Positions 31,216 to 56,862 of a stretch of DNA of 64,000 nucleotides are shown in pieces. Every line of letters starts with the position of its first letter. Position 1 is the first letter of the stretch. The stretch lies in assembly GCA_020161405.1 (NCBI GenBank), contig JAIUOD010000002.1:248001-312000 (forward strand). Reading direction: 5' to 3'. A program made the translations under genes and the position numbers. This DNA is from Pseudomonadota bacterium. Lineage in GTDB: Bacteria > Pseudomonadota > Alphaproteobacteria > Caulobacterales > Aquidulcibacteraceae. Below the pieces are notes generated by a model. It saw nothing but the letters and a program-made list of their open reading frames with translations. It had not been told where the DNA came from and ran no database searches.

Positions 31216-31758
31216 TTAATTAGTTGCAACCACTTTCAATTCAGGCCTTGCCGGCATTTGTGGGTCGGGTGGTAAAAGTGCCGTAAGTGAAAAGCGCAAA
31301 GCAGGGCGTGAAATTGAAACATTTGCCGCAATTGGTTGGAATAAACCAAGCACACGTTTTGTGCCATTTTTTTCCAAAAGCGGAAGGAAAACCAATTCAA
31401 TATCTGTTCTTTGGCCAATTCCTGCGCCAAAGGCTGCAACACGTGCCATAGCAGGCCCAGGTGTTGAAACCGCACTTTCTAATAATGCGCGAATTAAAAC
31501 CTTATCTGGCCCAAAGAATAAAGAACCAATTTCATGATCGCGCAAATCACGACCAGTCCAAACTTTAAGCTCTTTACCGATAGTTGTGAAAGTAAAAATG
31601 CCTTCGCCGACACGTTGTGCCATAAAAAGCCTATCAACTAAAGATGATGCATCGCGCGATTTAATATTTTGCGCAATCTCATCATTTTCGATACCATTTA
31701 ATGCGCGCCATGAATTTAGCATAAGGCGGGTTTCAGGGTGTAGGGCAGCAAATTGCAT
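31216..31758 (-). CDS. PAS_5 domain protein (MopJ-like)
   Basis: A 180-residue protein made of one PAS_5-type sensory domain (about 1-145) and a proline-rich tail. It opens with HPETRLMLNSWRAL and contains DRLFMAQRVGEGIFTFTTIGKELKVWTGRDLRDHEIGSLF, the family signature. The known Caulobacter relative MopJ is a polar modulator of cell-cycle signalling, so a cell-pole role is possible here. A sigma-54-type promoter lies 38-52 nt upstream of the start. Confidence 0.8.
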   Translation of the reverse strand: MQFAALHPETRLMLNSWRALNGIENDEIAQNIKSRDASSLVDRLFMAQRVGEGIFTFTTIGKELKVWTGRDLRDHEIGSLFFGPDKVLIRALLESAVSTPGPAMARVAAFGAGIGQRTDIELVFLPLLEKNGTKRVLGLFQPIAANVSISRPALRFSLTALLPPDPQMPARPELKVVATN

Positions 31759-31795
31759 TTATATAATCCTAATAAAAACTTACCCGTTGATAATT

Positions 31796-31810
31796 GCATT
31801 TTGCGTGCCA
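31796..31810 (-). promoter_or_regulatory. sigma-54-type promoter of the PAS_5 gene
   Basis: Read on the minus strand: TGGCACG-CAAA-ATGC. The -24 part is perfect and the -12 part matches TTGC except the first base. The expected start of transcription is about 25 nt before the PAS_5 ATG, with an AGGA ribosome site between them. The 373-bp region 31759-32131 otherwise has no gene. Confidence 0.6.
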
Positions 31811-32083
31811 CAACTTTTGGGCTTATTGGCACAATTTTTTCACACCATTTAGTTGAATTTAGCATCATTTTGACGCGCAAAGTCAATTTTGCATCAAAAT
31901 TGGACTGTTTGGTAACAAATCAATTCCAATAGCTGAAATCATCTTTTATGCTTAATAATCTATGAAATACGGGATAAAGGAATTGAAACCTTTCTTTGCT
32001 AATAAAGATGCTGAATAAAATATAATGAAGAGCAAAACTTTTTAATTAAATACAATCCTAAGTTTTCACCAAAATAGAGAAAC

Positions 32084-32099
32084 TGGCATTGAATTTGCA
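32084..32099 (+). promoter_or_regulatory. sigma-54-type promoter of the glycine-rich protein gene
   Basis: TGGCATTGAATTTGCA: TGGCA at -24 and TTGCA at -12 with the exact spacing of the sigma-54 consensus; the two bases after TGGCA differ (TT for CG). It lies 33 nt upstream of the start codon, with GGAG in between. Together with the minus-strand site 275 bp away it makes a divergent sigma-54 control region. Confidence 0.6.
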
Positions 32100-32131
32100 T
32101 AGAGGTTTTGTAACTTTCGTGGAGAAGATAA

Positions 32132-33058
32132 ATGAGTGTTTCAATTCGATACATAACAGCGGGTGCATTATTATCGCTTTTAAGTGGTGCAGCATTTGCG
32201 GGTGATTGCTGTGGCTCTGGTAGCTTTACTGGTGGCATTACTAATATTCCTGTAGTTTCTGGAAATGGTGGTTGCTGCGGTACTGCTAATAGTCAGATTG
32301 TTGGCGTCCCTGGAATTTATGTTCCATCATCAAATGTTGGTGTGAATGTTGGCGGCACTTATGTTGGCGGCACAAATTATAATGTTGGTGGCACTGTGAT
32401 TGGCGGCAATAATGTTGTTGTTGGCGGCAATACTTATATGAGTTCTGGTGCCTCTTATGGTTCTTATTCTTCTGGTGGTGGCGTTGCTTATTATGGCGGC
32501 GGCGGCGGTGCTTATATGGCGCCAGCTCCAGTTTATAATGGCATGATTGAAGGTCTGAATGTTGGCGGTGGTCAGGCTGCTGCTAGTATGGAACAAGTAA
32601 CAGAAACTAAAACTGTTACTGAAATTGTTCCAATTCGTGCCGTTTGTATGGATGATAAAGGCGTTCCACATCCTGCATCACGCGTGAATGGTGATGATAA
32701 AGTTGGCGCTGAATTTAATGGCGAAGTTTATCGCTGTATGGCTGGTACATATTTGGAAGTGACTATGGGGCGTATGGTAGATGGTAAAGCTGTTTTTGAC
32801 GGTGGCAAAAACCTTACATGCACCAAAGGTCAGGCTTTGTCTTATAAAGGTGGAAATGTTACATGCGTTGCGCAATTGCCTGCGGCAAATTGTAATGAAC
32901 GTTCATTGCTTCGCCGATTTGGCCCAGGTATCAAATATCTAACGCTTGCACGTCAACAAACTTATACACGCCAAGTACAAAGCCAACAATCAAGCCAATA
33001 TACAACATTCAAATCAAGCATGTATGTTGACGGTGGCGTTGGTCAAGGCGTTTATTAA
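32132..33058 (+). CDS. exported glycine-rich repeat protein with Cys-containing C-terminal domain
   Basis: 308 residues. A signal peptide ends at SGAAFAGD. The mature N-terminus has two C-C pairs (GDCCGSG, GGCCGTA) and then a run of VGG-x repeats (NVGGTYVGGTN, NVGGTVIGGNN, VVVGGNT) with a Gly/Tyr-rich stretch to about residue 135. The C-terminal half is a compact domain with several cysteines (AVCMDDKG, YRCMAGT, LTCTKG, VTCVAQ, ANCNERS) and a Gln/Ser-rich end. This is a surface-structure type of protein; I do not recognise a named family. A sigma-54 promoter precedes it and a strong terminator follows. Confidence 0.7.
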   Translation: MSVSIRYITAGALLSLLSGAAFAGDCCGSGSFTGGITNIPVVSGNGGCCGTANSQIVGVPGIYVPSSNVGVNVGGTYVGGTNYNVGGTVIGGNNVVVGGNTYMSSGASYGSYSSGGGVAYYGGGGGAYMAPAPVYNGMIEGLNVGGGQAAASMEQVTETKTVTEIVPIRAVCMDDKGVPHPASRVNGDDKVGAEFNGEVYRCMAGTYLEVTMGRMVDGKAVFDGGKNLTCTKGQALSYKGGNVTCVAQLPAANCNERSLLRRFGPGIKYLTLARQQTYTRQVQSQQSSQYTTFKSSMYVDGGVGQGVY

Positions 33059-33123: not shown

Positions 33124-34512
33124 TTATTTTCTTTCGTTTTCTGCGATTAATGCGTCAAGTTTTGCAACAACTTCGTCAGATGCTGCATCCATTTTATAGA
33201 AAGCTTCAAAAGCGCCCATTCTATCGCCGGCATTATAAAGCCTTGCCGCTTCTTTGCCGTTTTCATGAACGCGTTTGTGCGGTTCCTCAATAGCTAAGAA
33301 GTTTGGAGATAGAATGTTTGAACTAGATTTAAAGTTATTCCACCATTTTCCAAGGCGGCACATGTGATGATCTGTCAAATCGCTTTCGCTTAATGTTGAC
33401 ATGCCAGATAATAGAGCCGCTAATCGTTTTTTCCACATAATGTGATCTGATTTTGCGCGATATAAAACATAATTTTCAACGCCAAGTTGCTCAAGATTAT
33501 CTAATTCTGCTGTTATTTCTTTTTCAGATGCATTTACGGTTTCGGCTGATTTTTCAATCAGTCTTTTTGCATCTTTTGAAGATTGCGCAGCGCGGTTGAT
33601 GCCTTCGCTTAATTCATTAACAGCTTGCGATTGCTCAGATAGAACTTGTGCAACATTTGCAACGCCTTCAGCACCAAATTGAACTCCTTGCGATGCTTGT
33701 GTTACGCTTTCGCTGGCCTTTGATGCAGCATCCTCGGCATCATTTGCTGCAGATTTTGCTGAATTTATTGCACCAAAAATTGCATTGAGTGCCGCTTCTA
33801 AGCGGCCAATACGTGCACGAATATTTTCAGTAGATTTTGCGGTTTGTGCAGATAATTGTTTAACTTCTTGGGCAACAACAGCAAAGCCTTTGCCGGCTTC
33901 ACCTGCGCGTGCAGCCTCAATTGTGGCATTAAGTGCAAGAAGATTGGTTTGTGAAGCAATGGCATCGATTTCTTGTGCCATGTCTTTAATATCAATTGCT
34001 ACTGCATTTAAATTATTTAAATCTTGGTCAACAAGTGAAAGTGCTTGCGTTACGCTTTGGCTCGATTTTGCCGCAATTTGCACTTCTTGTGCACCTTGGT
34101 TTGCCTTGCTTGCAGATTCTTCAAGTGACTGATCAGTTCTTTGTGCCAAATCAGCGATTTGGCTAATTGATGCGGTTAATTCTTCAACGGCAGCCGCCAT
34201 TACGCTAATTTCAGACTCGCTTTTTGTAACTTCTGCATATGCGCGGGCAACTGATGCCTGAAAATTACTTGCATTTGTAGAACAATTTACAACAGATATA
34301 AGTGCACTTCTATCAGATTGTGCCAACCTATCATGCGCTAATTTTACAAGGCTTAGGATTTTTGGTGACGTAGTATCTAAATCTATTTTCTTGCGATTCA
34401 ATACACTTTCAAATGGTGACAAATCAATTTGTTCGAATTTTGGAGCCGCGAAATTAATTTGTTCAGTTACTTGTAAGTTACTATCTTTTTGCTTTTTCAA
34501 TATATTAAACAT
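33124..34512 (-). CDS. soluble methyl-accepting chemotaxis protein with CZB domain
   Basis: 462 residues without a membrane segment. The signalling domain has the invariant hairpin tip ([15 protein letters not shown], then [11 protein letters not shown]-x-EVK). A C-terminal chemoreceptor zinc-binding (CZB) domain of about 110 residues follows, with the expected ligands in [18 protein letters not shown] and [11 protein letters not shown]. The N-terminal 70 residues show no known sensor module. It acts in the cytoplasm on CheA/CheW; zinc, oxidant or pH sensing through CZB is an inference from the family. A perfect CtrA box lies 37 bp upstream. Confidence 0.93.
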
Positions 34513-55260: not shown

Positions 55261-55377
55261 TTTATTTACATAAAGTGTCCCAAAATAAACCAGAATTTTA
55301 ACATTTTACGCTAAAACCACTATAAATAAGGGGCAAAAGCCCAAAACAACCAAAAATATGGTTAAGTGGTGGTAAAT

Positions 55378-56862
55378 ATGAGTAAGACGGTATTAATCGT
55401 TGATGACGATCCGGCACAACGTCGCCTTTTGCAGGCCGCAGTTGAACGCCAAGGCTTTGCAACCCGCATGGCAGAGGATGGCGAACAGGCCATTGCACAG
55501 GCTGCTGACCCTGCGGTTGATGTAATGCTTTTGGACTTAATCATGCCAGGGGTTTCAGGCATGGAAGCATTGGCACAAATCCGACAAAAACGCGAAGATT
55601 TGCCTGTTGTGGTTCTTACCGCTTCTGGTGGTATTGATACTGTTGTAAAGGCAATGCAGGCGGGTGCGAATGATTTCTTTGTTAAACCTGCAAGCCCTGA
55701 ACGTGTTTTGGTTTCAATTCGTAACGCCTTAAAAGTTGGCGAACTAACCACCGAGGTTAGACGTCTTAAAAAACGTTCAACAGGTTCTTTGACTTTTGCC
55801 GAAATGGTTGGCGCATCACCAAGTATGAAACAAGTTATGCGCCTTGGACAACGCGCGGCGGCAACCAATATTCCTGTTTTGATTTTGGGTGAATCTGGTG
55901 TTGGTAAAGAAGTAATCGCGCGCGCAATACATGGTGAATCTGAACGTTCGCATAAACCAATTATTACGGTCAATTGCGGCGCTATCCCTGAAAATTTGGT
56001 TGAATCAATCCTATTCGGTCACGAAAAAGGTTCATTCACTGGTGCAAATGATCGCCATTTAGGTAAATTCCAAGAGGCCGATGGCGGTACGCTTTTCCTT
56101 GATGAAGTTGGCGAATTACCACTTGATATGCAGGTGAAATTACTTCGTGCCTTACAGGAAAGTGAAGTTGACCCAATCGGTTCAAAACGCCCAATTAAAG
56201 TTGACGTTCGCATCGTTGCGGCAACGAATAAAGATTTGGCACGCCTTGTTCAAGAAGGGCGTTTCCGTGAAGATTTATTCTATCGCTTGAATGTATTTCC
56301 AATCGATGCGCCGCCATTACGTGATCGCAAAGAAGATATTCCTGCGCTTTCAAAACATTTTATTACGCGTTTCAATACTGATATGGGTAAAAAAGTTTTG
56401 GGTGTTGCCCCATCTACAATCGGGCTTTTGCAAAGCTTTGATTGGCCGGGTAACGTTCGCCAATTAGAAAATACAATTTATCGCGCAATGGTTTTATGTG
56501 ATGGCGATTTCCTTCAAAATGAAGATTTCCCACAAATTGCGGCTGCATTGCCTGATATAAAAGCGGCAAATGAAATGCCGCAAATGGAATTTAAAGAAAT
56601 TGCCAATTCTCCACTTCCTGCAGAAATGCCAGTATTCGCCGCAAGTGGCGAATTAGCGCAAAAAATCGACTTATTCGATAGGGGCGGGCATTTGCGCAAA
56701 TTAGAGCAAATCGAAAAAGATTTAATCGAATATGCAATTGACCTTTACGCAGGCCATATGACAGAGATTGCAAAACGCCTTGGCATTGGTCGCTCTACAC
56801 TTTATCGCAAGCTAAAAGAATATGATTTAGAAGATCATCTTTTAAGCGCAGGTGCAAAATAG
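55378..56862 (+). CDS. NtrC-family sigma-54-dependent response regulator
   Basis: 494 residues from ATG 55378; a GTG at 55366 is an alternative start. A receiver domain with Asp53 in VMLLDLIMPG, then an AAA+ domain with Walker A GESGVGKE (171-178), the sigma-54 contact loop GSFTGA (218-223, Ser replacing the usual Ala) and Walker B TLFLDEVG, then a Fis-type HTH (EIAKRLGIGRSTLYRKL). It activates sigma-54 promoters such as those seen at 31.8-32.1 kb, though a direct link is unproven. No cognate kinase is adjacent. Confidence 0.95.
   Translation: MSKTVLIVDDDPAQRRLLQAAVERQGFATRMAEDGEQAIAQAADPAVDVMLLDLIMPGVSGMEALAQIRQKREDLPVVVLTASGGIDTVVKAMQAGANDFFVKPASPERVLVSIRNALKVGELTTEVRRLKKRSTGSLTFAEMVGASPSMKQVMRLGQRAAATNIPVLILGESGVGKEVIARAIHGESERSHKPIITVNCGAIPENLVESILFGHEKGSFTGANDRHLGKFQEADGGTLFLDEVGELPLDMQVKLLRALQESEVDPIGSKRPIKVDVRIVAATNKDLARLVQEGRFREDLFYRLNVFPIDAPPLRDRKEDIPALSKHFITRFNTDMGKKVLGVAPSTIGLLQSFDWPGNVRQLENTIYRAMVLCDGDFLQNEDFPQIAAALPDIKAANEMPQMEFKEIANSPLPAEMPVFAASGELAQKIDLFDRGGHLRKLEQIEKDLIEYAIDLYAGHMTEIAKRLGIGRSTLYRKLKEYDLEDHLLSAGAK

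Follow-up and report, generated by a model that had tools for sequence, protein, structure and literature searches.

Divergent sigma-54 promoters and a putative TacA operator in the first codons of a glycine-rich protein gene of Caulobacterales

Two genes facing away from each other in a 3.0 Mb genome of the order Caulobacterales, one for a PAS_5 protein and one for a glycine-rich protein, raise the question of which promoters and which activator switch them on. They lie in a window of 64,000 nucleotides (the whole stretch of DNA analysed), with a G + C content of ~40%. The PAS_5 gene (31216–31758, minus strand, ATG at 31758) encodes a single-domain protein of 180 aa, recognized by Pfam PF07310 with an E value of 3.2e-12. 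The second gene (32132–33058, plus strand, ATG at 32132) encodes a glycine-rich protein of 308 aa, predicted to be secreted. A gap of 373 bp separates the two. From its relatives in GTDB, their alignment and an AlphaFold2 model, the glycine-rich protein has a signal peptide, a disordered glycine-rich middle and a conserved beta-rich C-terminal domain with a cysteine, ending in DGGVGQGV. The C-terminal domain, with pLDDT mostly >90, was the sole confident part of the model. No family match was found in Pfam or NCBIfam, and the fold search against PDB gave no hit with E <0.07 and no confident match. Convergent to this gene, at 33124–34512, the window encodes a soluble chemoreceptor with a C-terminal zinc-binding CZB domain.

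The pair is widespread. Relatives of the glycine-rich protein were present in 55 of the 101 genomes searched, and 339 stretches of GTDB genomes encoded them when the alignment was used as query; a contig scan with the single protein had given no match. They were found in Hyphomonadaceae, Maricaulis, Robiginitomaculum, Brevundimonas, Phenylobacterium and Asticcacaulis. Of 122 loci, 114 had a PAS_5-like gene next to the glycine-rich gene and divergent from it.

An earlier note on this DNA had reported a sigma-54 site in front of each gene, with the right spacing and orientation, and this was confirmed: both sites have TGGC/TTGC-type elements in the GG-N10-GC spacing. The predicted PAS_5 promoter, TGGCACGCAAAATGCA, lies on the minus strand at 31810–31795, 36–37 nt ahead of the ATG. 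The predicted promoter of the glycine-rich gene, TGGCATTGAATTTGCA, lies on the plus strand at 32084–32099 and ends 32 nt ahead of the ATG. Transcription from sigma-54 promoters starts ~12 nt downstream of the GC, and with this usual geometry the glycine-rich transcript is predicted to begin at ~32110, with a 22-nt leader. The motif by itself is not rare, TGGCN7WTGCW having 9 matches in the window versus 7.4 expected, which is not above chance, and therefore the case rests on the comparison among relatives. It is in use in this genome, since perfect sites of like form stand upstream of the flagellin genes. The genome also encodes one RpoN, together with competent activators (TacA-like and FlbD, see below).

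Poor conservation in relatives would have spoken against the two sites, according to the same note; both proved conserved across Caulobacterales, at fixed places upstream of the genes. Among 97 distinct loci, the forward site stood at −48 in 56 and at −47 in 16. The choice of start codon in the G-numbered loci depended in part on whether this site was present. A less biased figure comes from relatives in which the protein N-terminus was the main guide to the start codon: 36 of 56 had a forward site scoring at least 12.4, almost all exactly at −48 or −47. The reverse site reached at least 12.4 in 68 of the 97 distinct loci, versus 3.25 expected from shuffles. The loci are related, so these counts overstate their independence, and the scores, for promoters and for the dyad below, are simple consensus scores. 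The distance of the reverse promoter from the ATG was quantised (−75, −84/−87, −95/−97, −105/−109, −115/−118 and −137/−141), with a best period near 10.6 bp, in a set of loci thinned by hand.

Conservation at the nucleotide level did not stop at the start codon of the glycine-rich gene. The conserved columns run on into codons 3–7, where a near-palindrome, GTTTCAATTCGATAC (GTNYCR-N3-YGRNAC; 32138–32152), lies at about +29 to +43 of the predicted transcript; this pattern had one match in the window, versus 0.24 expected. In 85 distinct homologs the codons were strongly constrained compared with the rest of the same genes. Ser4 was encoded by TCA in 62 of 63 cases (11% elsewhere), Pro4 by CCA in 22/22 (14%), and Arg6 by CGA or CGG in 78/81 (13%). 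Tyr, His or Asn at position 7 had the C-ending codon (TAC, CAC or AAC) in 81/81, versus 35–43% elsewhere. The constrained bases spell GTNYC-N5-GRNAC, and the dyad was present in 81 of the 97 loci. The earlier note had proposed a search for an activator site between the promoters; a candidate was found, but within the glycine-rich ORF rather than between them. Nine loci scored without a forward promoter while the ORF held the dyad and a PAS_5 reverse site was adjacent (Robiginitomaculum species, Pseudaquidulcibacter, TMED5 and Woodsholea, the last with a weak forward site), and the reverse promoter was kept in all nine. In a tenth such locus, Robiginitomaculum L202, the reverse site was at −106, outside the search range. 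A match at C5:271701 of the genome was rejected as a second copy of the element, being a chance match inside another gene. In locus L004 of the same genome, a strong sigma-54 site ahead of an ArsC-like gene has a perfect palindrome, GTTTCATTTTGAAAC (1427–1441), 74 bp upstream of it.

Four strong NtrC-family proteins are encoded in the genome. We read them as a TacA-like protein, FlbD (beside flhA), and NtrX and NtrC, each encoded next to a histidine kinase. The gene of the TacA-like protein lies within the same window, 23 kb from the dyad (55366–56862, plus strand), and encodes a response regulator with an AAA+ domain (PF00158, E 1.5e-73) and a Fis-type HTH; its reading as TacA comes by elimination and resemblance. 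The GAFTGA-type (L1) loop, which an activator requires to act on sigma-54, was kept in only two of the four, the TacA-like protein (GSFTGA) and FlbD (GAFTGA). NtrC and NtrX, in which the loop is absent, were excluded as sigma-54 activators. The same split of the loop among these activators was reported for Caulobacter (PMC10274813).

In Caulobacter, spmX and staR are targets of TacA (PMC7010744), and the dyad recurs at the homologs of both in several genera. GH24 (SpmX-type) homologs had a dyad in the leader, at 41–43 nt counted from where the sigma-54 site starts; such homologs were those of Pseudaquidulcibacter (G001), Aquidulcibacter, Robiginitomaculum-type genomes and other genera. In staR-like XRE genes of Pseudaquidulcibacter, Aquidulcibacter and allies, a dyad, exact or with one mismatch, was found at 41–42 nt. 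The element is degenerate in the window's own genome, where the dyads of spmX (L280) and staR (L365) are imperfect, unlike those of relatives, and the −12 element of the staR promoter is degenerate as well. The large genus g12 had no strict dyad downstream of the promoter at staR (L380–L387) and dyad-like sequences upstream instead; several of these loci carried GCGCCRNNNCGGNGC ~85–95 bp upstream of the sigma-54 site. No comparable dyad stood at a matching distance at the flagellin promoters of the window's own genome (L002, L003 and L061). Since only TacA and FlbD are competent, and the dyad is present at spmX and staR homologs and absent from the flagellin promoters, TacA is the economical reading. 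A description of the TacA binding site was not found in the open-access papers searched.

We therefore read the locus as a pair of divergent sigma-54 promoters under a dyad operator in the first codons of the glycine-rich gene, with TacA as the protein most likely to bind there and the pair switched on together with spmX and staR; we give this a probability of roughly 0.72. TacA-P would occupy a fixed helical face at the dyad, the centre of which lies ~36 bp inside the transcribed region, and would open the sigma-54 holoenzyme at the forward promoter from the downstream side. From the same dyad, which to the PAS_5 promoter would be an ordinary upstream enhancer, TacA-P would open that promoter as well, and both genes would come on with spmX and staR as swarmer cells turn into stalked cells. 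The sharing of the dyad with these TacA targets points to membership of the pair in the programme that builds the stalked cell pole, where both proteins would act. The divergent sigma-54 control and the co-regulation of the two genes that the earlier note proposed are supported, and so is its link to a polar or developmental programme, the putative activator site being common to spmX and staR homologs, TacA targets in Caulobacter (PMC7010744). The note's idea that the glycine-rich protein is part of a polar surface structure has become more plausible but is still a guess.

The distance between the PAS_5 promoter and the dyad, ~330 bp here versus ~100–150 bp in most relatives, counts against this mechanism in the window genome, as do the degenerate dyads of its own spmX and staR; the missing strict downstream dyad at staR of genus g12 also speaks against the reading. 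Here a possible second, weaker dyad, GCATCATTTTGACGC (31862–31876, 8/10 match), lies ~51 bp upstream of the PAS_5 −24 element and may serve this promoter; the close relative G003 has a perfect inverted repeat, GCATCATTTTGATGC, at the same element. Among genes with a dyad 95–125 bp upstream of a promoter, none was recurrent except the PAS_5/glycine-rich pair.

The dyad also reveals a wider class of promoters. TGGCN7TTGC-N20..50-GTNYC-N5-GRNAC had ~117 matches in 120 genomes, versus 12 for the reversed control. The total length of the pattern peaked at 56–58, 67–69 and 78, with empty troughs at 60–62 and 72–75. With the glycine-rich genes left out, 51 representatives had a 10.5-bp periodicity (R 0.57) that none of 20000 uniform draws reached, and the inner positions that the dyad pattern leaves unspecified were R and Y in 34 of the 51 (p 4e-10). 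The genes behind the class, named from sequence, include staR, spmX, a WecG/TagA-type glycosyltransferase, secreted pentapeptide-repeat proteins and an acyl-homoserine-lactone-synthase-like gene. The glycosyltransferase genes of family f5 (L342–L345), which we take to resemble the holdfast gene hfsJ, have the sigma-54 site and the dyad at a total length of 78. In Henriciella-type genomes (L327, L328, L331, L332 and L333), the dyad of the genes for secreted pentapeptide-repeat-like proteins overlaps the leader and the start codon. The acyl-homoserine-lactone-synthase-like gene, with a sigma-54 site and a downstream dyad, was found in Aquidulcibacter (L324 and L325) and may connect quorum signalling with the stalked-pole programme.

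Could another protein sit at the dyad? Both promoters could depend on sigma-54 while a different dimeric regulator, for example a repressor, acts inside the transcribed region to tune the transcription that TacA or FlbD drives. A place downstream of the start site is usual for repressors, and the geometry of two five-base half-sites with N5 between them resembles the SciP palindrome of Caulobacter, GCGNC-N5-GNCGC (PMC4287350), although its bases are not those of the dyad. The 17-bp Fis-type geometry, the helical phasing and the tie to sigma-54 promoters suit an activator better, and a repressor would have no need of a fixed helical face. Moreover, some lineages have the dyad upstream of the promoter: where the ORF holds none, as in Caulobacter/Phenylobacterium-type loci (G073, L183, L217, L225 and L226), a perfect copy stands between the genes, 19–51 bp upstream of the glycine-rich promoter. 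We consider this alternative unlikely.

FlbD, the flagellar activator, is encoded next to flhA and keeps the GAFTGA loop, so that it could in principle drive the pair. Its binding site should then recur at flagellar sigma-54 promoters; the flagellin promoters of the genome itself lack the dyad at a matching distance, whereas the spmX and staR homologs have it. This disfavours the flagellar role raised in the earlier note, and we regard control by FlbD as quite improbable.

The codon conservation could also reflect an element of the mRNA (a hairpin or a small-RNA target) or a constraint on the signal peptide, rather than a DNA operator. The element sits in the first codons, and V3, S/P4 and R6 are conserved as residues, yet the constraint on third bases far exceeds codon usage. 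A hairpin was rejected: in the in-ORF dyads positions 3 and 13 pair in 10% and positions 6 and 10 in 1%, and the dyad relocates. In seven Brevundimonas-type loci (G061, G065, G081, G085, G097, L228 and L232) it is gone from the glycine-rich ORF, and a perfect 10/10 copy lies at the start of the PAS_5 ORF; the chance of such a dyad is ~2% per locus (random 1.2 kb stretch). A perfect copy elsewhere was the usual finding where the in-ORF dyad is lost; some loci, e.g., in Hyphobacterium, had no dyad at the pair at all. The element thus shifts among one ORF, the other ORF and the gap, leaving the glycine-rich transcript in other lineages, and is therefore a DNA operator; an mRNA or protein signal is very improbable. 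That both sigma-54 motifs are chance matches, as their number in the window would allow, is contradicted by their conservation at specific positions across genera and families and has a negligible probability.

With a DNA operator bound by TacA as the preferred reading, we tentatively extend it, with more doubt than confidence, to the class as a whole. TacA-type sigma-54 promoters of Caulobacterales may be a class with the activator sitting on DNA that the polymerase is going to transcribe, in many cases the first codons, on a constant helical face and at distances that change by single turns. From this downstream position it would touch the polymerase with no long loop in between, and each polymerase that passes would dislodge it, so that transcription would come in short, self-limiting bursts, as would suit a narrow window of the cell cycle. 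Sigma-54 promoters and activators of this kind are already known; new are the operator within a gene and the phased class that it reveals. The dyad would provide a sequence signature for a developmental activator that had no binding site in the papers searched, and make the TacA regulon predictable across hundreds of species. It would also connect the stalked-pole programme with an uncharacterised conserved pair, the PAS_5 protein and the secreted glycine-rich one, and offers a test case for sigma-54 activators that work from downstream coding DNA at distances quantised by the helix.

Several known systems resemble parts of this arrangement. The enhancer sites of NtrC are TGCACC-N5-GGTGCA. The dyad shares with them the 17-bp length and the N5 between half-sites, which suits a Fis-type HTH dimer; the bases of the half-sites differ, and the NtrC of this genome is without the GAFTGA loop. 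The PAS_5 protein, called MopJ-like in the earlier note, resembles Caulobacter MopJ (CCNA_00999) only at the level of the domain, a PAS_5 domain standing alone (E 3e-12). The likeness does not extend to control: mopJ of Caulobacter answers to GcrA and ppGpp, and no sigma-54 promoter is described for it (PMC4432633), unlike the PAS_5 gene here, which has one. Closer in spirit is the downstream activation by FleQ of Pseudomonas, a sigma-54 activator that binds near or downstream of the flhA, fliE and fliL promoters and is reported to act there with no looping (Jyot et al. 2002, cited in PMC6120874). FleQ is a different protein, with no agreed consensus, unlike the clear dyad, the helical quantisation and the coding location described here. 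Most similar are the TacA-dependent sigma-54 promoters of Caulobacter spmX and staR: homologous loci carry a sigma-54 promoter and the same dyad, and TacA-like, RpoN, SpmX-type and StaR-like homologs are all encoded in this genome. Unlike at those promoters, the dyad here lies within coding sequence and serves a divergent pair.
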